Virus record (IMG/VR): IMGVR_UViG_3300022074_000030
Span: 1 to 64,000 of that record
DNA: 64,000 nt
Direction: 5' to 3' (one strand)
Origin: a virus
Below, in pieces: positions 1,829-41,618 of this stretch (position 1 is its first letter; every line of letters starts with the position of its first letter). The notes beneath the pieces were generated by a model. That model worked only from the letters and a program-made list of their open reading frames with translations, did not search any database and was not told the DNA's origin. The position numbers were made by a program, and so were the translations under genes.

Positions 1829-2394
1829 TGTGCGATCTCCGTTACTGATATGAAGCTAATACCTCTTTCGTAGTCATTAGTAGTTGTATCATTAACAGAC
1901 TTGTTAATATGAATAGTAGTACCAGCGTTAGTAATTGCTCCAACTTTATAAGTAATTTGATTAGTAGTTGAAGGAGCATCAAAATAACTATAGTGAGCTA
2001 CTTCAGGAGTGCTACTCCCATCAGTAGAATAACTTATAGCTGTATTTGTAATACCACATAATGTAGTTCCTACTTGTGGGTGTGCTAATTTCGTAGAATC
2101 TCTGTAAAAAAACCAAACAGAATCATAAGGAGCAGTTGAATCTGCCCATTCATGGAATATATGAGCATCTATTCTAATTATAGATGATGTACTTTTAGGT
2201 GTAATATTTACAGATAAAACATCTATAGCTGTACTTGTATCAGCACTTATACTCACAGTAGTTGTGCTAGTATATTGTGTAAAGAGCATTTGCAACACGT
2301 GCCCTGGTGCATATAAAACGTGTCCACTCGCAACGTTTATAGTGTTACTACTACTCGCCGAACCCTGTATATTTTGAACTGTTAATGTACTCAT
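1825..2394 (-). CDS. Tail fibre/adhesin protein (SGHVLYAPGHV family)
   Basis: This 189-residue protein has the common N-terminal tag (MSTLTVQNIQG, then a SGHVLYAPGHVLQ block at about residues 24-36) and ends VTEIAQ. It is related to the 167-residue protein at 5578-6081 and the partial protein at the left edge. Its middle part is beta-rich with ITPKSTSSIIRI, a pattern common in marine phage fibre proteins. No enzyme motif is seen. It is inferred to be a short exchangeable receptor-binding protein. Confidence 0.72.
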   Translation of the reverse strand: MSTLTVQNIQGSASSSNTINVASGHVLYAPGHVLQMLFTQYTSTTTVSISADTSTAIDVLSVNITPKSTSSIIRIDAHIFHEWADSTAPYDSVWFFYRDSTKLAHPQVGTTLCGITNTAISYSTDGSSTPEVAHYSYFDAPSTTNQITYKVGAITNAGTTIHINKSVNDTTTNDYERGISFISVTEIAQ

Positions 2395-28371: not shown

Positions 28372-29322
28372 TTACGTATAACCACCCGATGAACCTCCTG
28401 ATGAACCTCCTGATGAACCTCCTGCTGATGATCCACCTACTTCATTAGAAGGATACAGCGTATATAAATTTGCATTGTAACTTTTTACTCCATGATTTTG
28501 ATTAGACAATGGCATCCAAAATTCTATCTCAGGATATTCTATAAATGTATGTTTATGAAAACTTTCTCCAACTTTACTTTGATCCAGATATATCGGATAA
28601 AAATAACCCTTTTGGCCAGATGAACCGCCGAAGTTACTAGTTCCAAATACTGCATATACTTTATCTTCGTCTAAAGGTTGTGGTGCAGTAGTTTTCGGTT
28701 CTTCTTGACCAACTTCTAAAAATTCACCTGTAGCTTGAACGGCATTGTTAAATCGTGTTTCTATTACTTCATCATATGTTACACTCCAAGGTGCTATTAT
28801 TTCAGGCATTATTAGTACAATATCTACATGCAATCTACCATCAGGTGTGTAGCTGTCATAGTTAAGTATTATTTTATCATAGTTAATATTGTTTTTAAGA
28901 TAAACAGCTAAATCGAATGTTTTATCAAATGCTATTTGACCATCTTCTCCTATGAGTTCATATACTACTGCTCTTCCATTAGTCTTTAAATAATTTATAC
29001 CATCTGTTACATCTAAATTTTCTGTAGGTCCTTCTCTGTAATATCCTTCAGACACAACTAATCTAAACTTTTCAAATCCTTTTGCACCTCGTAATCCTGG
29101 CGATGAGTTGATAGTTTGCATCACTTGAGCGTGTAAATAATATTGCTTAGCTAACAATAACCTATCTGCTGTAGTTAAATGATTTATACTAGTAGGATCG
29201 CCATAACTACCTAAGAATTTAGATAGTGTAATGCTTTGTGCTAATCGAGTACGACGTGTTATTTCAGGTTGAAACGTAGGATCGTACTGAGCGTCTGGTA
29301 TTATGTCTAACGTAAGTGCCAT
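28372..29322 (-). CDS. Baseplate-associated protein with Gly-Ser tail
   Basis: This 316-residue protein starts MALTLDIIPDAQYDPTFQPE and contains HLTTADRLLLAKQYYLHAQV, YYREGPTENLDVTDGINYLK and YTPDGRLHVDIVLIMP. It ends in a repeated SSGG linker with four near-identical units (GGSSGGSSGGSSGGY). It is conserved next to the spike gene in marine phages, but I do not recognise an enzymatic family. The low-complexity end could be a flexible tether in the baseplate hub. Confidence 0.65.
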   Translation of the reverse strand: MALTLDIIPDAQYDPTFQPEITRRTRLAQSITLSKFLGSYGDPTSINHLTTADRLLLAKQYYLHAQVMQTINSSPGLRGAKGFEKFRLVVSEGYYREGPTENLDVTDGINYLKTNGRAVVYELIGEDGQIAFDKTFDLAVYLKNNINYDKIILNYDSYTPDGRLHVDIVLIMPEIIAPWSVTYDEVIETRFNNAVQATGEFLEVGQEEPKTTAPQPLDEDKVYAVFGTSNFGGSSGQKGYFYPIYLDQSKVGESFHKHTFIEYPEIEFWMPLSNQNHGVKSYNANLYTLYPSNEVGGSSAGGSSGGSSGGSSGGYT

Positions 29323-30698
29323 TATGTTTGATATACTTTCGATTTAGGATTAGAAGGTCCCATAGGTTCACTTCCTCTTTGTGATTTATCTTTAATACTA
29401 ACTGACTTTCCAAATTGCGGAGGTATAGTGTTTGCAAAGTTTTTAGAAACTAAACCTTCTGATATAGCCTCACCAACAAACGTTTCATTTGCAATTGTAT
29501 TTGGATCACGTAATTTAGATCTAACTGATTTTGTATTTAATTCTGTTTCTGAAATTCCGCCATAGTTTCTACTTTTGTTGATAGTATATTTTAAATCTTC
29601 AAATGTATCTACTTCAACTTGTCGTATTCCTACAATTGGTGATGTAGTTAATGCATCGTTAATGACAGTAGCATTAAGTGTTTTATCATTTCCAGTTGTG
29701 TCTGTTACAGTGTTTGTTGGAGCTGATGCTGATCCACTTGCACCAATAGATCCAGCTGTTCCAGCTTTTTGTGATTCTACTGCTTTATCAGCTGTGCCTT
29801 TAACGTCACCTGTAAATGTTGGTCCGGTCACACCTGCTGTAAAAGTAGCCGAAGTTGCAAATATATTTTTAGCACGTTTAGTTACGTTGGCTCCACCCAT
29901 AAGTCCAGTTTCTCCAATGACGGTTATGTCAGTTGCAGTTATAGAAGTGTTAGGTGATGATGAAATAATTTTAGATTCACTCGTCATTACTAAGTCACCA
30001 GCTGCATCCATTTCAATTATGCCTTTAACTATATTATCATAGTTACCTTTTATTATTTGTGTTTTATTACTTAAAACTGTTTGTGTATCTGCGCCTACGA
30101 TTGTTTCAGCTTTATTTTGTCCTATTTCTGTGGTTTTGTTTTTAGCAATGGTTTGTATTGAATTACTTTTTATAACTTCTTCCTTATCCCCTACAACATT
30201 TACATTAAAGTCACCACCAACTTCTAAGTCAAAATCACCTGCAACTTTCATTTTTAAGTTACCATTGTATACTACTTCACCATCACCTTCAACAATAACT
30301 TTTTCATTAGCTGCCACGATTCTTATTGCATTGTTAGTAGAACTATAAATCACAGTTCCATCCGCACGCATCTCTACGCCTGAACCAGTTCTGTGCCGAA
30401 TCATAACTCTTTCACGGCCATTAGTATCATCATACTCTATTATATGACCTGATGATGTTTCTTTAACTTGGTTCTCAGGATATTGCGTAGAAGGCTCATC
30501 ATTTAATTCTAAATCGACACCGGGTACACTTCCACCAATATATACATTAGCAACTCTTGTACCACGTGCAATGTTGTTTACTCCAGAAACACCTACGTAT
30601 TCTTTCCTAGGAAATCTTTTGTCTGGATCAGATCTTCCATCATCTGGATTAATTAAATCACTAAATTCATTTGGATCTACATTATCGATATCAGCCAT
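29322..30698 (-). CDS. gp5: Baseplate spike beta-helix (gp5 C-terminal type)
   Basis: In this 458-residue protein the first part has an OB-like GTRVANVYIGGSVPGVDLEL segment. It is followed by repeating beta-prism units (SGHIIEYDDTNGRERVMIRH, KMKVAGDFDLEVGGDFNVNV, VGDKEEVIKSN), the needle fold of gp5/VgrG that punctures the outer membrane. The lysozyme domain of T4 gp5 is absent here and lies in a separate gene at 32815-33666. The C-terminal part contains fibre-like FTAGVTGPTFTGDVKGTAD. Confidence 0.8.
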   Translation of the reverse strand: MADIDNVDPNEFSDLINPDDGRSDPDKRFPRKEYVGVSGVNNIARGTRVANVYIGGSVPGVDLELNDEPSTQYPENQVKETSSGHIIEYDDTNGRERVMIRHRTGSGVEMRADGTVIYSSTNNAIRIVAANEKVIVEGDGEVVYNGNLKMKVAGDFDLEVGGDFNVNVVGDKEEVIKSNSIQTIAKNKTTEIGQNKAETIVGADTQTVLSNKTQIIKGNYDNIVKGIIEMDAAGDLVMTSESKIISSSPNTSITATDITVIGETGLMGGANVTKRAKNIFATSATFTAGVTGPTFTGDVKGTADKAVESQKAGTAGSIGASGSASAPTNTVTDTTGNDKTLNATVINDALTTSPIVGIRQVEVDTFEDLKYTINKSRNYGGISETELNTKSVRSKLRDPNTIANETFVGEAISEGLVSKNFANTIPPQFGKSVSIKDKSQRGSEPMGPSNPKSKVYQT

Positions 30699-32815
30699 TA
30701 TCTACCTCTATTTTGTTTTAAGGTTGAGCCGAGTGTTTTAACACTGTTTGCATCTGTGTTTACTTTATTAACAATGTTATTAATCAACTTATTGTTTTCT
30801 TTCATTTTAGCTTGAGCTGCTTTATAATCTCTGTCAAAATTTGCTTTAACATCACCGTCTGGTAAATTTTCTGCACCTCGTTTTGCTGCGACTGCACTTA
30901 AACTTTCGCCATTCAGTAAATCTATAGTCGCACCTGCTTTTTTAATCGCTCCGTTTACATCATTATTTAATCTTCTACTTTCACTTAATTCAGTTATGGC
31001 TGCATTACTTGAAGAATATGATATAGGTTTTGTTATAGTAGATGAAGTGCTGGCAATAATTGCGGGTTTTGTAACTGCAGTTTGCAGCTTAGGTGGAAAT
31101 TCATCAAGGTTAGTAAGATCATCATAACGATAAACAAACCTATATTTAGATCTTATATTTTGTCTTACATCAAAAGTATTTTGTACACGGTCACTCGCTT
31201 CACTAGTAGAATACACACCGCAATCTGGAAATACAGTGAACCATGCTTTTAAAAATCTATCATATGTTTCAAATTGTTTAGCGTTAGGAGGTGTTCCACC
31301 AGAAAGTATAGTTAATTGAGCACCAGTTTTATAAAATCTTGGATACGCCGAAGGTGTACGAGTTTTATCTATTGGCCTTCCTCTTTGTAAACTTCCATCT
31401 GTTAGAATTATATAGTGAGAGTTTATTCCGTATTCATTAGGCCTTATTGATATTCTTTCTATTGCTGTTTCAGCTGCTGTTTTACCATCAGATGCAGTAT
31501 TAGTATCATAAATTTCTCTAGTTAACACACGCAGTTGAGCCCTTTTAACTCTTTCTTGCATATCTTTAGCATTAGCTTTTTCAGGTGGTCCAGTATATTT
31601 TGCGGGTTCATGAATAAACAATCCTCCTATAAAATCATCACCTGTATTTTTTGGCCCTCTTCGACTTTCTTGAAACTCTGTGACTAACTCTTCAACTGAA
31701 TTTACAAATGTATATTCGTAGCTTTCAGGAGTTGCGTATCCAGCATAAGCATTTTGATCTTGTAATACATATGAAATAGTAGGAGTACCTACACTCACCA
31801 AGCTACCTTTGTTTACATAATTAGAAATATTAGTTTGTGATCCACCCGCTTCAATTAAATCGGATGTTATTCCATTAAAAGAAGGAATTCCATTTTTAAT
31901 ATCACTAAATATAGAACCTACTTTATTTAGTAGATTGCCAATAACTTGTGGAAATAAGTTTTGTTTACTTCTACCTAATCCTGAAAATGCGCTGAGAGGA
32001 TTAAAATTTAAAAATGCAGAATTTTGTAAAGATTTTAATTTATCTTTGTATATTTTAGATGATGCCTGTACAGCAACGGTAGAAGGATTGTTTTCAGGTT
32101 TTAAAGATTCAATAGTTCTTGATGGACTAATAGAAACATTTGACGCGTATGTTCTTATTTTTTGTGGAGGAAGACTTGCAAAGTTTTTCTGCAGCTGTTT
32201 AAGTAGAGCTGCAGGAGATCCGCTTGTAACAATTTTCTTTAATGATGATGTTCCGGTTGGAGCAAATCCAAAAGCTTTTGTTAATTCACTTTGACTTGAT
32301 GTAGTCGGTAATAAACTACCATCACCTGCAGAAGCAGTAAATATTACAGGCATAGTTCTTTTAGTTATAGTTTCACCTTCTTTAGCAAAAGGTGTTAAAG
32401 ATTTAAATCCACCAGTTTCATTATAGTTTCCTATAGTTGCGCCATCATTACTAATTTTATCAGTTTGTGTATTTTCTAATTTAGTAGAGAAAAACGGTTG
32501 ATTATTTTTAGCCGCGCGATTGACATCTTCTTTTGTTATTAATTTTCCAAACTGATCTCTTTGTGGAAGGGTAGAGGCTTCGTAGTCAATCTCTAACTCT
32601 GTATCAAAATTTTTTCTAATCGTTAAAATTAATGTTGTTGAATTAAATTTCCACAAACTGCCAGGAATTTTTGTGTATCTATGAGTTGGTCCAGAATTAT
32701 TTAAATAAATTCTTCTATACTCTGGATTAATAAGACGCCTCATTTGAACCATACTAACCTGAAAAGTACCTGATGGTAATTGTATTTTGTCTCCTCTAGC
32801 TATAAATTTTGCCAT
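30698..32815 (-). CDS. Baseplate hub protein with amidase-like domain
   Basis: This 705-residue protein has a C-terminal half with GGLFIHEPAKYTGPPEKANA, then NSHYIILTDGSLQRGRPIDK. This resembles the N-acetylmuramoyl-alanine amidase (amidase_2) pattern with a first His (IHEP) and a second His (SHYII). The expected third metal ligand is not obvious (FPDCGV may hold it), so activity is uncertain. It sits between the spike and OB/lysozyme genes, so it is probably a virion hydrolase used during DNA entry. It overlaps both neighbours by one base. Confidence 0.65.
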   Translation of the reverse strand: MAKFIARGDKIQLPSGTFQVSMVQMRRLINPEYRRIYLNNSGPTHRYTKIPGSLWKFNSTTLILTIRKNFDTELEIDYEASTLPQRDQFGKLITKEDVNRAAKNNQPFFSTKLENTQTDKISNDGATIGNYNETGGFKSLTPFAKEGETITKRTMPVIFTASAGDGSLLPTTSSQSELTKAFGFAPTGTSSLKKIVTSGSPAALLKQLQKNFASLPPQKIRTYASNVSISPSRTIESLKPENNPSTVAVQASSKIYKDKLKSLQNSAFLNFNPLSAFSGLGRSKQNLFPQVIGNLLNKVGSIFSDIKNGIPSFNGITSDLIEAGGSQTNISNYVNKGSLVSVGTPTISYVLQDQNAYAGYATPESYEYTFVNSVEELVTEFQESRRGPKNTGDDFIGGLFIHEPAKYTGPPEKANAKDMQERVKRAQLRVLTREIYDTNTASDGKTAAETAIERISIRPNEYGINSHYIILTDGSLQRGRPIDKTRTPSAYPRFYKTGAQLTILSGGTPPNAKQFETYDRFLKAWFTVFPDCGVYSTSEASDRVQNTFDVRQNIRSKYRFVYRYDDLTNLDEFPPKLQTAVTKPAIIASTSSTITKPISYSSSNAAITELSESRRLNNDVNGAIKKAGATIDLLNGESLSAVAAKRGAENLPDGDVKANFDRDYKAAQAKMKENNKLINNIVNKVNTDANSVKTLGSTLKQNRGR

Positions 32816-33666
32816 TATCCATTCACCAATTTATCGAATACTTCTTTTGCGTAGCTTATTCTTTTTTCTGTATGTGCAAATTGTTTATTAGGTCTTTCAT
32901 AATTATCTTGAAATAACTCAGCTGCTCTCTTGACCGTAGTTGATTTTCTTAATGGGCCATCACCTAGGTAGTTAAATGTTTCTAATTCGTACTTAGTAAA
33001 TAATAGTTGTGCACCTAGCGTTAAATGATCTAAACCTAAGTTAGCTGAATATTCTCTTAGTTGACCTAATCTATTGCCAGCCGCTTTTGCTGGATTCCAT
33101 TGTGCTATTCCAACTGAACCTTCACCTTGAAATCCTGATACTGTTGTTGGGTCAAGTGATGGACCACATTCTACACAAAAGTTACCTATAATACCACAAG
33201 CTTGTTCTACAGTATAATCACCACCTTCTTCTGAAACAAAGAAATTAAATGCTTTTTCAATGTTAGTGTTTCCATCTAAATCTATATCTATATTTCCTAT
33301 TCCAGATTTTTTATTAAACGATGGATATGATGGATCAGCATCACCGCTTTGGTTAGCATAAGTTTCTATCTTAGGTATTGATCCTATGACTAAAGGCAAT
33401 TGTGAATTTCTTCCATCTAAAAATATACCGTATACTTGTGCTCTTGGTTTTAAACTACTGTTAGCACCTAAACCTGAACTACCGCCTTCTGTTACAGGTA
33501 TTGCGACTTGAGCCCAAGGTAAGTCTGCATTAGGTATTAATGTAGTATCTGGAGTATGTATACCTTGTATACGAACTTTGACTCTATCGAGTTTAAGTGG
33601 ATCATTCACATCTATAACTAATCCTATAAACCATCTACTGTGATCACCATAAAAGATTTGACTCAT
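32815..33666 (-). CDS. gp5: gp5-like OB fold fused to tail lysozyme
   Basis: In this 283-residue protein residues 1-105 form the gp5 N-terminal OB fold (WFIGLVIDVNDPLKLDRVKV, RIQGIHTP, YGIFLDGRNSQLPLVIGS). Residues about 130-280 resemble phage tail lysozymes (VEQACGIIGNFCVECGPSLD, SVGIAQWNPAKAAGNRLGQL, REYSANLGLDHLTLGAQLLF). It probably degrades peptidoglycan during penetration. T4 places lysozyme and needle in one polypeptide; here they are separate. It overlaps gp27 by four bases. Confidence 0.82.
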   Translation of the reverse strand: MSQIFYGDHSRWFIGLVIDVNDPLKLDRVKVRIQGIHTPDTTLIPNADLPWAQVAIPVTEGGSSGLGANSSLKPRAQVYGIFLDGRNSQLPLVIGSIPKIETYANQSGDADPSYPSFNKKSGIGNIDIDLDGNTNIEKAFNFFVSEEGGDYTVEQACGIIGNFCVECGPSLDPTTVSGFQGEGSVGIAQWNPAKAAGNRLGQLREYSANLGLDHLTLGAQLLFTKYELETFNYLGDGPLRKSTTVKRAAELFQDNYERPNKQFAHTEKRISYAKEVFDKLVNG

Positions 33667-37725: not shown

Positions 37726-38316
37726 ATGAGTAACTTATTTCAAAAACTAGAACTTGAAGCTTTTCGTGCAGGAATTAATCCTCGTACACAAGAATCACGT
37801 GAATGGTTTCGTAAAAGAATTCAAAAACTTACAAGAGTCAACCGTGATGCTTTAATGAGAGAAGATGAAATTAATCGTAGAGCATCTCATAGTTATGGTT
37901 CTATGTTTATGTACTTTTATGATCCTAAGCATAAAGACAAATTACCTTTTTACGACAGGTTTCCATTAACCATACCAGTTGAACCAGCTCCTGGCGGATT
38001 CAGAGGAATAAATTTACATTATCTACCTCCAGTGTTGAGAGCAAAGTTTTTAGATGCATTATTAGATGCAACCAATAACAAAAAATATGATGAATCTACG
38101 AGATTTAAATTAACATACGATTTGTTAAAAGGTGCACGTAAAATGAGATATTTTCAACCATGTTTTAAACATTATTTGCTTGCACACGTTAAATCACGAT
38201 TTGCTGAAGTGCCTGCACCTGAATGGGAAATAGCAGCATTTTTACCTACTGCACAATGGGAGAAAGCATCTGCAGGAACAGTTTATCAGAATTCAAGGAT
38301 GAAAGTAAATGGCTAA
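37726..38316 (+). CDS. Conserved structural-region protein between gp4 and gp54
   Basis: The 196-residue protein starts MSNLFQKLELEAFRAGINPR and contains YGSMFMYFYDPKHKDKLPFY, GFRGINLHYLPPVLRAKFLD and GARKMRYFQPCFKHYLLAHV. It is well conserved in marine T4-like phages beside gp4. By position it might be the DNA end protector (gp2) or a neck or baseplate component, but I cannot assign it. It has no visible Shine-Dalgarno and overlaps gp54 by eight bases. Confidence 0.75.
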   Translation: MSNLFQKLELEAFRAGINPRTQESREWFRKRIQKLTRVNRDALMREDEINRRASHSYGSMFMYFYDPKHKDKLPFYDRFPLTIPVEPAPGGFRGINLHYLPPVLRAKFLDALLDATNNKKYDESTRFKLTYDLLKGARKMRYFQPCFKHYLLAHVKSRFAEVPAPEWEIAAFLPTAQWEKASAGTVYQNSRMKVNG

Positions 38317-38989
38317 TACTATTGAAGATCTTAAAGCATTAATGAACACCAAGTTAGGTTTTGCAAGACCTAACAAGTTTTTGGTTACATTACCTACTGT
38401 AGGAGTTGGTGGTGGTTTGCTAAGTGGTATAATAGGTGCATTCAGTGGAATGGGTGGAGGAGCAAGTCCAAGAGAATTAAATATATTATGTTCAAATGCA
38501 ACCATGCCAGCAAAACAGGTACTCACTAATGATAGAAGAATTGGAATGGAATTTCAAAAAGTAGCTTATGGCTATGCTGTAGATGATGTAAGCATGACAT
38601 TCTATTTAATGAATGACTATGGAATAAAAGATTATTTTGATAGTTGGAGAAGTACTATACTCGATGAGTTTGGTCAAGCATCTAACTACAAGAACGAATA
38701 TGCTAAAACAGTAACTATACATCAATTAAGACAACCATTGAAAGGTTTTAGCAAACAAGTCGGACCAATAAGATTTAATGCTGGTCTCGGCGGAGGAAGT
38801 GTTTATTCAGTAGATTTATTGGATGCTTTTCCAATAGCATCTAGTGCAATTGAATTAAACAATGAACTCGACGGTTTAGTGCAATTAACAGTTACATTTG
38901 CATATACAAACTGGAGAAGAGCTAGTGGTGGACAAAACTTTATCAACATGGATATTGACACACCACTTGGCGGAATTGATATAATATAG
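38309..38989 (+). CDS. gp54: Baseplate tail-tube junction protein, gp54/tail-tube fold
   Basis: The 226-residue protein starts MANTIEDLKALMNTKLGFAR and has ARPNKFLVTLP, CSNATMPAKQVLTNDRRIGM, DDVSMTFYLMNDYGIKDYFD and a final GLVQLTVTFAYTNWRRA. This is the gp19/gp54 tube fold. Being next to gp26 and the tape measure gene, it is more likely the junction protein gp54 that starts tube polymerisation than the major tube gp19 (inference). AAGGA precedes the start. Confidence 0.75.
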   Translation: MANTIEDLKALMNTKLGFARPNKFLVTLPTVGVGGGLLSGIIGAFSGMGGGASPRELNILCSNATMPAKQVLTNDRRIGMEFQKVAYGYAVDDVSMTFYLMNDYGIKDYFDSWRSTILDEFGQASNYKNEYAKTVTIHQLRQPLKGFSKQVGPIRFNAGLGGGSVYSVDLLDAFPIASSAIELNNELDGLVQLTVTFAYTNWRRASGGQNFINMDIDTPLGGIDII

Positions 38990-38999
38990 GAGTGAATTA

Positions 39000-39716
39000 A
39001 TGAGCTTATTGCCAAAACTAAATGATGTTCCAAAGTATAACATTATAATACCATCAAACAATCAAGACATAACAGTAAGGCCTTTCTTAGTTAAAGAAGA
39101 GAAAATAATGTTAATAGCTTTGGAATCACAAGATCCAAAACAAATAGCTGGTGCCGTTTTAGATACTGTAACATCTTGCATAATGGATGACGTCAATGTA
39201 AATGCACTTACATCATATGACGTTGAATATCTATTTTTACAATTAAGATGCAAATCAGTAGGTGAAACTACAGACTTATTATTAAAGTGTGATGATTGTG
39301 CACATGAAAATAAAGTTAATTTTAATTTAAATGATATTAAAATGAATGTTAAAAGCATTCAAAATAAAGTTAAGATAACAGATCAGATTGTATTAGAAAT
39401 GAGACATCCTTCTTTCGTGTCACTAGCTAATAATGAAAAAATAACTAGTGAAAAAACTACTACTACCGAACAAATATTTTCTTTAATAAAAGAATCAGTA
39501 ATTTCAGTTATTAACGGCGATAGTAGAATAGATATGAAAGAAGTAAACATTGATGAATTTCAAGAATTTTTAGAATCTATGACTCAAGAACAATTTTCAA
39601 ATATTAGAAGCTATATTGAAAACATTCCAAAGTTAAGCCATGGCATTAAATTTGAATGTGAAAAGTGTAGTCATAATAATGAAATAGCAGTAGAAGGATT
39701 GCAAAGTTTTTTATAA
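39000..39716 (+). CDS. gp26: Baseplate hub/tail assembly chaperone gp26
   Basis: The 238-residue protein starts MSLLPKLNDVPKYNIIIPSN. It contains RPFLVKEEKIMLIALESQDP and two Cys pairs that look like a zinc ribbon (LLKCDDCAH, FECEKCSHNN). This is the T4 gp26-like family of hub assembly proteins. Its last codons AGT TTT TTA TAA contain a slippery heptamer (39707-39713) leading into the gp51-like frame. Both the short form (238) and a fused form (298) may be made. AGGAG precedes the start. Confidence 0.85.
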   Translation: MSLLPKLNDVPKYNIIIPSNNQDITVRPFLVKEEKIMLIALESQDPKQIAGAVLDTVTSCIMDDVNVNALTSYDVEYLFLQLRCKSVGETTDLLLKCDDCAHENKVNFNLNDIKMNVKSIQNKVKITDQIVLEMRHPSFVSLANNEKITSEKTTTTEQIFSLIKESVISVINGDSRIDMKEVNIDEFQEFLESMTQEQFSNIRSYIENIPKLSHGIKFECEKCSHNNEIAVEGLQSFL

Positions 39717-39805
39717 TTAGTCTATCTCATACATCGTTGCAAAACCATTATAAAACTCATTTTGATTTAATGCAACATCATAAATATTCATTGAGTGAGA
39801 TAGAC
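39707..39805 (+). promoter_or_regulatory. Putative programmed -1 frameshift site with stem-loop
   Basis: The heptamer T-TTT-TTA (39707-39713) is in register with the gp26 codons and is followed at once by the TAA stop. After a 6-base spacer, GTCTATCTCA (39720-39729) can pair perfectly with TGAGATAGAC (39796-39805). GTTGCA (39736-39741) can pair with TGCAAC (39771-39776) inside it. This is the layout of known -1 frameshift signals. Confidence 0.72.
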
Positions 39806-39895
39806 GGATTGATACCATGGGAAAAAGACGTATATATTAGTATGCTAGTAGATTACATTAAAGAAAAAGAAATGGAAAACTCAAATAGGAATTAA
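39713..39895 (+). CDS. gp51: gp51-like C-terminal chaperone frame, probably read by frameshift
   Basis: This 60-codon frame is in -1 register to gp26 and ends at 39895, four bases before the tape measure gene. It contains HHKYSLSEIDGLIPWEKDVY followed by ISMLVDYIKEKE. This resembles the short gp51/tail-chaperone block (H-x-Y-S-x-x-(E/D)-(I/L)-...-PWE-(K/R)-(D/E)-(I/V)-Y). No ATG with a Shine-Dalgarno exists before that block; the first ATG (39770) lies inside it. Translation as a gp26 fusion of 298 residues is therefore favoured. This start is the first codon after the slip, not an independent initiation. Confidence 0.72.
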   Translation: MISLSHTSLQNHYKTHFDLMQHHKYSLSEIDGLIPWEKDVYISMLVDYIKEKEMENSNRN

Positions 39896-39899
39896 GTAA

Positions 39900-41618
39900 A
39901 TGGCTCCAAGAAAAACTTTAAATGATGTAGTAGAACAGTTAAAAGTTAATAACCAAACTACTGTTGATATAGACACTGGTATAGCTGGTTTAGAGAATCA
40001 ATTTGGAAAATTTTTCACAGATTTAAAAAGACAAAAGCTGGAAGATAGTAGAGAAGCAAAAGCGGCCAAGAGCGTAAACGTAGCTCCGGCTGTTAAACAA
40101 GCTGCAGGCGGCAAAGGCGGATCTGGATCAAGTATTTTTGGCGGTGTAGGAAAACTTGGTTTCTTAGGAGGATTGGGTGCGTTAGCTGCAGGTATAGGTT
40201 CAGCTGCAGGTGCAATATTAGCAGGACTAGGCCCAGCCGGTGTAGGACTAGGTGCTTTCTTTTTAGGATTAGCTGGTGCTGAGGCTATAATAAACAAGTT
40301 TGCATCAGCTGACGCTGGTGAAGGTATAAAAAAATTATTAATTAATTTATCTGAAGGTTTAAGTTCATTTAGCAATAGATCATTTATTGCACTTGGAACA
40401 GTATTAGCTGCAGGTGTTCTGTTTCCAAAATCTACAGTAAAAGGTTTAGCTGCAGTAGGTTTAGGCCTAGCTGCATTTTTTACTGCTCTCGCAGGATCAG
40501 ATAAATTAATACAAATGATGAATGGTGATGGTGGTGCGAATTTAAACACACTATTAACAAATATCGCAGGAGGCTTAGACGCATTTAGCACTAAATCATT
40601 TCTAGCTCTTGGAGCAGCTATGAGTGCAGGTGCACTTCTTTCATTATTTCCCGGTGGGACTAAAGCAGCAACACTTGGTTTAGCAGCAATTGGAATCGGT
40701 ATTGGAGCTTTTATTACATCTATAGCCGGCATATCTAAGTTAGGAGCGGTGTTAGGCATCGATGGAAGTGCATTTAAAGTTCTAATGACTAATATGGCTG
40801 CAGGTTTAAATGAGCTTACCGCTCTTGAAACTGAAGGATTATTGACAAAAGTTGGAGCAATAGGATTAATAGGGCCTGCCGTACTTGCGGCTATAACGAG
40901 TTTCACTGCAGCACAAGGCGTTGATAGTTTAATAAATGGTGCTAAAAAAGTTATAAACTTTATAACATTTGGTGCAGCTGGATTAGAAGACCAAGCTACT
41001 GCACGAAAAGGAATGATTCGAGATCTTGTAGATGCTATGAAACCTTTACAAGAAATACCATCTAATCTTGGAACTCAACTCGACTTATTAAGTTCTGGTT
41101 TACTAAAATTTGTTAAATCATTTAACCAAGCTGCTAACGATTTAGACATTGAAAAAATTACTAAAACATTTTTAGAGCTCGGAGCTACATTATCTATGAC
41201 TCGTAATTTAGTTTTTGCTATGGCTAACGGTGGTGAATTTAAAAAACCCGGATTACTTAATAAAATAGCACGAGGTCTAAATTTAGGTGGAAAAATAGAG
41301 TTTGGAGAAGAAGGAAGTGGCGGACTTTTAGATCCTGCATTAAAGACAGACGATTTAGTAAAACAAGTACAAAAGATTAATTTTACTCTTGGCAAAACAA
41401 ATATAGTACCGACTGCTGGTCCAGCAATTACACCAAGTAGTAAACCAGTGACTGCTAGTAGCAATCCATCAGAAGGTGGAGGTAATGTTATTTCTACAAA
41501 CACAGTAAACTCAGGTAATGTATACAACAGCGCCGGATTTGCTATTAACTCATCCGGCGCCAATGATCCTAGAAATATGTTTGGTACTCAAGCGCATAAC
41601 GCAGCTGGATTATTCTAA
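39900..41618 (+). CDS. gp29: Tape measure protein (gp29 position)
   Basis: The 572-residue protein is Gly/Ala-rich and hydrophobic in the middle. Three tandem modules of about 75 residues recur (LLINLSEGLSSFSNRSFIAL, LLTNIAGGLDAFSTKSFLAL, LMTNMAAGLNELTALETEGL), each followed by a glycine-rich hydrophobic stretch. The length is close to T4 gp29 (590), and it directly follows the gp26/gp51 chaperone locus, the usual place. It probably sets tail length, enters the cell membrane at infection, and binds the hub. It ends overlapping the convergent gp32 stop by four bases. Confidence 0.75.
   Translation: MAPRKTLNDVVEQLKVNNQTTVDIDTGIAGLENQFGKFFTDLKRQKLEDSREAKAAKSVNVAPAVKQAAGGKGGSGSSIFGGVGKLGFLGGLGALAAGIGSAAGAILAGLGPAGVGLGAFFLGLAGAEAIINKFASADAGEGIKKLLINLSEGLSSFSNRSFIALGTVLAAGVLFPKSTVKGLAAVGLGLAAFFTALAGSDKLIQMMNGDGGANLNTLLTNIAGGLDAFSTKSFLALGAAMSAGALLSLFPGGTKAATLGLAAIGIGIGAFITSIAGISKLGAVLGIDGSAFKVLMTNMAAGLNELTALETEGLLTKVGAIGLIGPAVLAAITSFTAAQGVDSLINGAKKVINFITFGAAGLEDQATARKGMIRDLVDAMKPLQEIPSNLGTQLDLLSSGLLKFVKSFNQAANDLDIEKITKTFLELGATLSMTRNLVFAMANGGEFKKPGLLNKIARGLNLGGKIEFGEEGSGGLLDPALKTDDLVKQVQKINFTLGKTNIVPTAGPAITPSSKPVTASSNPSEGGGNVISTNTVNSGNVYNSAGFAINSSGANDPRNMFGTQAHNAAGLF
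41530..41560. other. GC-rich 9-bp hairpin at convergent gene ends
   Basis: GCGCCGGAT (41530-41538) and ATCCGGCGC (41552-41560) form a perfect stem with a 13-base loop inside the last codons of the tape measure gene. No T-run follows on either strand, so this is not a classical terminator. It is conspicuous because the surroundings are AT-rich and two operons converge here. Confidence 0.55.

Follow-up and report, generated by a model that had tools for sequence, protein, structure and literature searches.

Does the short reading frame behind gene 26 of this marine T4-like virus encode a protein of its own, or is it the tail of gp26, reached by ribosomes that slip? The question is raised by a locus within the window, as we call the whole 64,000-nucleotide stretch of DNA analysed here (positions 1 to 64,000 of IMG/VR record IMGVR_UViG_3300022074_000030), in which gene 26 meets its stop codon directly behind a run of Ts and a gp51-like segment lies in the -1 frame. 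T4-like phages are among the commonest marine viruses. The tail assembly chaperone frameshift is known from lambda and other long-tailed phages (Levin 1993; Xu 2004); in lambda, G forms a coat on the tape measure and T brings in the tube protein (reviewed in PMC5009743). The original prediction for our locus was a -1 frameshift with an architecture like that of lambda G/GT, and comparison with related sequences now strongly supports it. We put at roughly 0.92 the probability that programmed -1 frameshifting yields a short chaperone, gp26 (TAC-N), and a long one, gp26-gp51 (TAC-NC), in the manner of lambda gpG and gpGT.

Results

Reading frames and gene context at the 3' end of gene 26

The features used below are as follows, with positions counted in the window.

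38309..38989, + strand: protein of the tail tube family, encoded immediately before gp26 (phrog_45 tail tube, E=1.2e-28)
39000..39716, + strand: gp26, the putative short tail assembly chaperone TAC-N; zero-frame product of 238 aa (PF12322, phrog_150)
39707..39713, + strand: slippery heptamer T-TTT-TTA, in register, with the TAA stop directly after it (from the sequence; present as T-TTT-TTN in all 289 relatives that carry the gp51 domain)
39713..39895, + strand: -1 frame extension, gp51 or TAC-C domain, read as the C-terminus of a predicted gp26-gp51 fusion (phrog_634)
39714..39716, + strand: zero-frame stop TAA, 0 nt after the heptamer (from the sequence)
39720..39730, + strand: 5' arm of the long-range stem, 6 nt past the heptamer (10/11 bases invariant in the window clade)
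39736..39741, + strand: 5' arm of the nested stem, GTTGCA (compensatory U-A/C-G change)
39771..39776, + strand: 3' arm of the nested stem, TGCAAC (pairs with 39736-39741)
39795..39805, + strand: 3' arm of the long-range stem, in the -1 frame Ser-Glu-Ile-Asp codons (pairing, fold)
39900..41618, + strand: presumed tape measure protein, 572 aa, with Gly/Ala-rich hydrophobic segments (position; weak tape measure matches of relatives' genes there)

The gp26 protein was identified as PF12322 (T4_baseplate) over residues 11-238, with E=3.5e-56 and 190.8 bits against a curated cut-off of 24.5, and as phrog_150 (E=6.7e-56). Its gene ends ...AGT TTT TTA TAA, confirming on the sequence that T-TTT-TTA stands in register before the stop. 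The -1 frame runs from 39713 to 39892 and closes with TAA at 39893-39895. The 60 codons and the gp51-like block that had been predicted for it were both found, the segment matching phrog_634 ("baseplate hub assembly catalyst") at E=2.1e-23 over profile positions 59-114 of 121. The predicted absence of an ATG with a Shine-Dalgarno sequence before the gp51 block was likewise borne out: no start codon of any kind with a Shine-Dalgarno sequence precedes the block in the -1 frame of the window, where the only starts are TTG at 39737 and a Met within the domain. The segment is a C-terminal domain only, in the -1 frame, and has neither the start codon nor the gp26-like N-terminal part of an independent T4-style gp51. 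A second T4-style gp26/gp51 paralogue was also sought in the record, a 66-kb fragment, and discarded, the single PF12322 match there being gp26.

An AlphaFold model of gp26 was confident (pLDDT 89). Foldseek comparison of the model with the PDB gave no significant match; the HK97 chaperone 2ob9 was among the few hits with a probability above 0.5, at a non-significant E=2.3 (probability 0.51, TM 0.44 on the target).

The tape measure gene predicted at 39900 stands as regards position and the ATG with which the reading frame begins, whereas the frame itself matches no family in Pfam, PHROGs or phage records. Genes at the equivalent place in Melnitz and a Rhizobium phage gave weak tape measure matches (2.9e-8 and 1.6e-6). 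Since there is no family match for the frame itself and only these weak ones in relatives, the label is a positional one. Annotators of several relatives (loci L032 and L038 in our numbering) have named the presumed tape measure gene endolysin, lysozyme or late control gene D protein, and lysis-family profile matches in these genes suggest a fused lytic domain. Elsewhere in the window a gp5-like hub/tail lysozyme is split (29322-33666, minus strand) into an N-terminal part at 32815-33666 and another gp5-like part at 29322-30698, with a 705-aa open reading frame without any PHROG match between them (30698-32815).

Conservation of the slippery heptamer

Relatives were gathered from IMG/VR, by means of several queries, and from isolates, with gp26 and not the junction as the criterion; 25 further loci were added from one stem-pattern search, which matched the window clade only. 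An HMM of the -1 frame domain then gave 289 loci, with both orientations counted once and a few contigs present twice, and removal of near duplicates left 181 representatives. A scan of genome contigs for more loci returned a single distant one (L283). By tblastn, 681 phage records contain relatives of gp26 and 545 contain a match to the gp51 segment.

Every one of the 289 loci (181 non-redundant) has an in-register T-TTT-TTN at most 22 codons before the gp51 domain. Isolates bearing it include phages of cyanobacteria (cyanophages), Pelagibacter, Methylophilales, Rhizobium, Stenotrophomonas, Vibrio and Pseudomonas. Among the representatives the heptamer is TTTTTTC in 128, TTTTTTT in 43, TTTTTTA in 8 and TTTTTTG in 2; the run comprises six Ts in 138/181 and eight in 16/181, and in 165/181 the zero-frame stop follows the heptamer either directly (0 nt) or after 3 nt. 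In 14 of the 181 (L014-L018 and Mosig-like loci) this stop comes 24 nt after the heptamer, making the short product of those loci eight codons longer.

The codon before Phe-Phe ends in T in 181/181 representatives, be it AGT, GAT, TCT, AAT, GCT or GGT (Ser, Asp, Asn, Ala, Gly). Other Phe-Phe sites within gp26 of the first 120 representatives show T-TTT-TT in 7 of 118 cases, and an in-frame slippery heptamer of any kind occurs at 173 of 28264 codons. From the residues and the codon usage of each gene, the heptamer was expected in 76 of the 181 representatives, against 181 observed; after thinning to 66 divergent loci the log10 probability of this excess was still -32, figures which ignore residual relatedness.

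The relatives were also compared for a separate start codon. Near the junction, the -1 frame lacks any ATG, GTG or TTG in 63 of the first 120 representatives (about half), and a start with a Shine-Dalgarno-like match is present in only 5/120. A separate gp51 gene with its own start was rejected on the strength of this survey, and the original prediction, which had named the heptamer and separate starts of relatives as the point of comparison, was upheld. In the records LN828717, MT647606, MZ577098 and NC_015569 the putative frameshift extension is annotated as a short separate gp51 gene, or omitted, and KJ019054 has a gap where it lies, between gp26 and the next CDS.

RNA structure downstream of the heptamer

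Both predicted stems are present in the sequence. GTCTATCTCA (39720-39729) is perfectly complementary to TGAGATAGAC (39796-39805), forming 10 bp that grow to 11 bp via 39730-39795 (U-G), and the 6-bp stem 39736-39741/39771-39776 is nested inside. The MFE fold of 39714-39820 includes the long stem (-21.9 kcal/mol, z = -2.9). Across the representatives, the best stem among those whose 5' arm lies 3-10 nt past the heptamer had a mean score of 19.4 versus 12.3 at control positions of the same loci, and exceeded the 95th percentile of controls in 61% and the 99th in 39%; strong stems begin mostly 5-6 nt past the heptamer. By this simple score about 39% of the representatives fall below the 95th percentile of controls, so that a stem may not be needed everywhere. 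The mean-MFE profile dips after the heptamer to -7.5 to -7.9 from about -5.2 elsewhere, which is modest because 45-nt windows miss long-range stems. Upon shuffling of synonymous codons with the protein held fixed, the stem had a mean z of 2.4 over the 181 loci, and for our own sequence 0/4000 synonymous recodings reached the observed stem score.

Three stem designs were distinguished by clade: a local hairpin, a stem with a loop of 64-66 nt and one with a loop of 84-88 nt. The 64-66 nt type is that of the window clade and recurs at 41-58% protein identity in L204-L208 and L304; in the divergent L304 (junction near 2363-2378, minus strand) the outer stem GTCTATCTCAT/ATGAGATAGAC is kept and the nested stem is absent. 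Mosig, Melnitz and their relatives have the 84-88 nt type with different arms, for example CCCTCTCTCA with TGGGAGAGGG, and a 3' partner in the Pro-Trp-Glu-Arg segment. Comparison of the stem among related phages, as originally suggested, shows a 5' arm that stays about 5-7 nt past the heptamer and a 3' arm whose place varies by clade.

The outer stem hardly varies within the window clade, the only differences being G-U changes and one C-G/U-A at the inner end, and its support therefore comes from conservation rather than from covariation. The nested stem contains either TTG with CAA or CTG with CAG, switched together in 12/12 window-clade sequences and synonymous on both sides. Covariation was also found in the 84-88 nt type, between the third bases of Leu and Glu, 90 nt apart (Fisher p=3e-7), and between those of the +5 codon and Arg (5e-7). 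The same two pairs did not covary in the other clades (p=0.39 and 1.0). In nearest-pair contrasts 22/25 and 27/28 changes were accompanied by a matching one and none by an opposing one; since duplicate contigs and comparisons across clades account for some of the pairs, fewer events than this are independent. The heptamer, the reading frame, the domain, the stem and selection on them are shown by comparison among sequences.

A role of the stem as terminator was considered and rejected, no terminator-like site having been found. The search for known RNA families gave only a sub-threshold match to snoZ39 on the opposite strand, which we take as chance.

Phages with separate genes 26 and 51

T4 had been cited as a phage in which gp26 and gp51 are separate genes. 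It does have two genes, adjacent and divergently transcribed; the contrast needs amending in that T4 gp51, judged by its profile matches (PF12322 over residues 1-201, phrog_634 over 147-246), is a paralogue of gp26 in which the C-terminal domain is already present. HMMs of gp26 and of the gp51 domain were built without T4 and searched against seven proteins. The gp26 model matched T4 gp26 (1e-19) and the N-terminal part of the stand-alone gp51 proteins, and the gp51-domain model matched the C-termini of those from 44RR, Kpn6N, EC-F2 and QL01 (2e-8 to 2e-6); T4 gp51 itself was not reported by the latter in this seven-protein search. Paralogy and C-terminal domain together make T4 look like a two-gene version of the same short/long pair.

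Seven T4-type phages with a full-length separate gp51 were compared (T4, Kpn6N, QL01, ZZ1, G5211, 44RR and EC-F2), and a T6 or A6 run is absent from the gp26 3' end in 7/7; T4 reads GAG TTC TTT GAG there. The slip site is thus present where no separate gene encodes the long form and absent where one does. The divergent T4 genes (L036, 7803-9229) share an intergenic region, which may set the short:long ratio without a frameshift. In Acinetobacter phage ZZ1 (L311, 1501-2255) the match to the stand-alone gp51 falls into two parts that lie in different frames, and an overlapping CDS with this name is mentioned in the record; this break may be a sequencing error or another frameshift.

Discussion

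In the mechanism that we propose, gene 26 would encode the short chaperone TAC-N, and the majority of ribosomes would terminate at the TAA at 39714. A minority would move one base back on T-TTT-TTA, with the tRNAs of the P and A sites pairing anew on the U run, probably aided by the stem that starts 6 nt downstream, and would then read 60 further codons. The product of this slip, extended by the gp51 domain, would be the long chaperone, TAC-NC. On the model of lambda gpG/gpGT, both forms would cover the tape measure protein with their gp26 part, and subunits of the tail tube or the hub would be brought in by the gp51 extension. The slip frequency would set the ratio of short to long form, and the lambda precedent suggests a role in tail length or hub assembly. 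What we infer is the occurrence and the frequency of slippage and the chaperone function of the products. T4-type phages would obtain the same two products from the paralogous genes 26 (short) and 51 (long).

Other origins of the gp51 block have to be weighed against this mechanism. Public annotation mostly treats it as a separate gene (S-PM2 gp51, Mosig, Melnitz, S-CRM01), which could be expressed by translational coupling or by re-initiation at a weak start such as TTG 39737 in the window or ATG in some cyanophages, and some relatives do have an ATG or GTG 9-15 nt past the heptamer. We nevertheless consider this very unlikely: the start-codon survey speaks against it, a start at the TTG of the window, which falls within the domain, would lose the conserved ISLSH block, stand-alone gp51 of T4-type phages also has a gp26-like part, and the in-register heptamers in 289/289 loci are left unexplained. 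Slippage of RNA polymerase on the T run, in place of the ribosome, would also give a fused product and draws on a homopolymer that is always present and reaches eight Ts in a few representatives. It seems even less probable to us, since the run is of only six Ts in most of them, transcriptional slippage usually needs runs longer than six, and the in-register phase and the conserved stem at 5-7 nt suit ribosomal slippage better. Hardly credible, finally, is a frame break that arose as a sequencing or assembly error, or a gp51 that is the decaying remnant of a once fused gene. Homopolymers are error-prone and the source record is metagenomic, but the identical break at the identical place in 289 loci, isolate genomes and several families included, in practice excludes error, and in the open -1 frame the protein sequence is conserved across large distances.

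The stems call for a judgement of their own. We give about even odds to a family-wide RNA stimulator whose 5' arm is fixed 5-7 nt past the poly-U heptamer and whose 3' arm has been relocated between clades, to a local site in many cyanophages, to Ser-Glu-Ile-Asp at ~65 nt in the window clade and to Pro-Trp-Glu-Arg at ~87 nt in the Pelagibacter/Methylophilales-phage type. If true, long-range frameshift stems with partner turnover in bacteriophages would be a new stimulator variant. It is rather doubtful that the inverted repeats are instead a by-product of the conserved protein or have some other function, such as regulating the next gene. The conserved codons that hold the 3' arms, the lack of a strong stem in some relatives and the frequent absence of a clear stimulator at lambda-type sites would fit such an origin; however, the stems exceed synonymous shuffles that leave the protein fixed, synonymous third bases covary between the arms and fail to do so in other clades, and the spacing of the 5' arm is typical of frameshift stimulators though the 3' partner moves. 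The covarying stems offer a testable set of candidate natural frameshift stimulators.

The short "gp51" genes entered in the records of such viruses probably do not exist as genes in their own right. With gp51 read as the frameshift tail of gp26, many records would need correction, as would the "reduced gp51" of Sullivan et al. 2010 (PMC3037559), who, in the part of their paper on this protein, describe cyanophage and marine vibriophage forms without about 200 N-terminal residues. Locus and domain are the same as ours; there they figure as truncated separate proteins with no frameshift proposed, whereas we read a gp26 frameshift extension.

The biology of the T4-like chaperone frameshift is largely known already. 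The chaperone genes of T4-like phages were identified by Vladimirov, Gautam and Davidson 2022 (Virology 566:9-15), as relayed by papers that cite them: PMC10885494 for T4-like phages with one short and one long gene, and PMC12846349 for poly-T slippery signals in T4-like TAC-N genes. The latter's account of Pakpunavirus Adele and other Vandenendeviridae resembles our locus in the poly-T -1 frameshift motif at the TAC-N 3' end and in an extension misannotated as a separate gene before the tape measure; it differs in the phage family and in the motif, GTTTTT, and its description of that motif mentions no covarying downstream stem. Among open-licence papers we found no description of covarying clade-specific stems, and the downstream structure may be a new element of the T4-type chaperone frameshift.

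With lambda gpG/gpGT our locus shares a short chaperone gene directly before the (here presumed) tape measure gene, a tail tube gene upstream, and a -1 slip near the 3' end with the extension in the -1 frame. Unlike lambda, it has the poly-U slippery site T-TTT-TTN, a stop mostly 0-3 nt on and a conserved downstream stem, and no sequence similarity to lambda-type chaperones was detected. With the T4 pair the likeness extends to the proteins, gp26 being homologous over its full length and the -1 frame domain to the C-terminal ~50 residues of stand-alone gp51; the difference is that T4-type phages rely on a divergent pair of paralogous genes and no longer have the heptamer, whereas here one gene would give both forms. 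T4's puzzling essential protein gp51 would thereby be linked to the general scheme of short and long chaperones, which one lineage would realize by a ribosome slip and another by two genes, the slip site being absent wherever the second gene is present.
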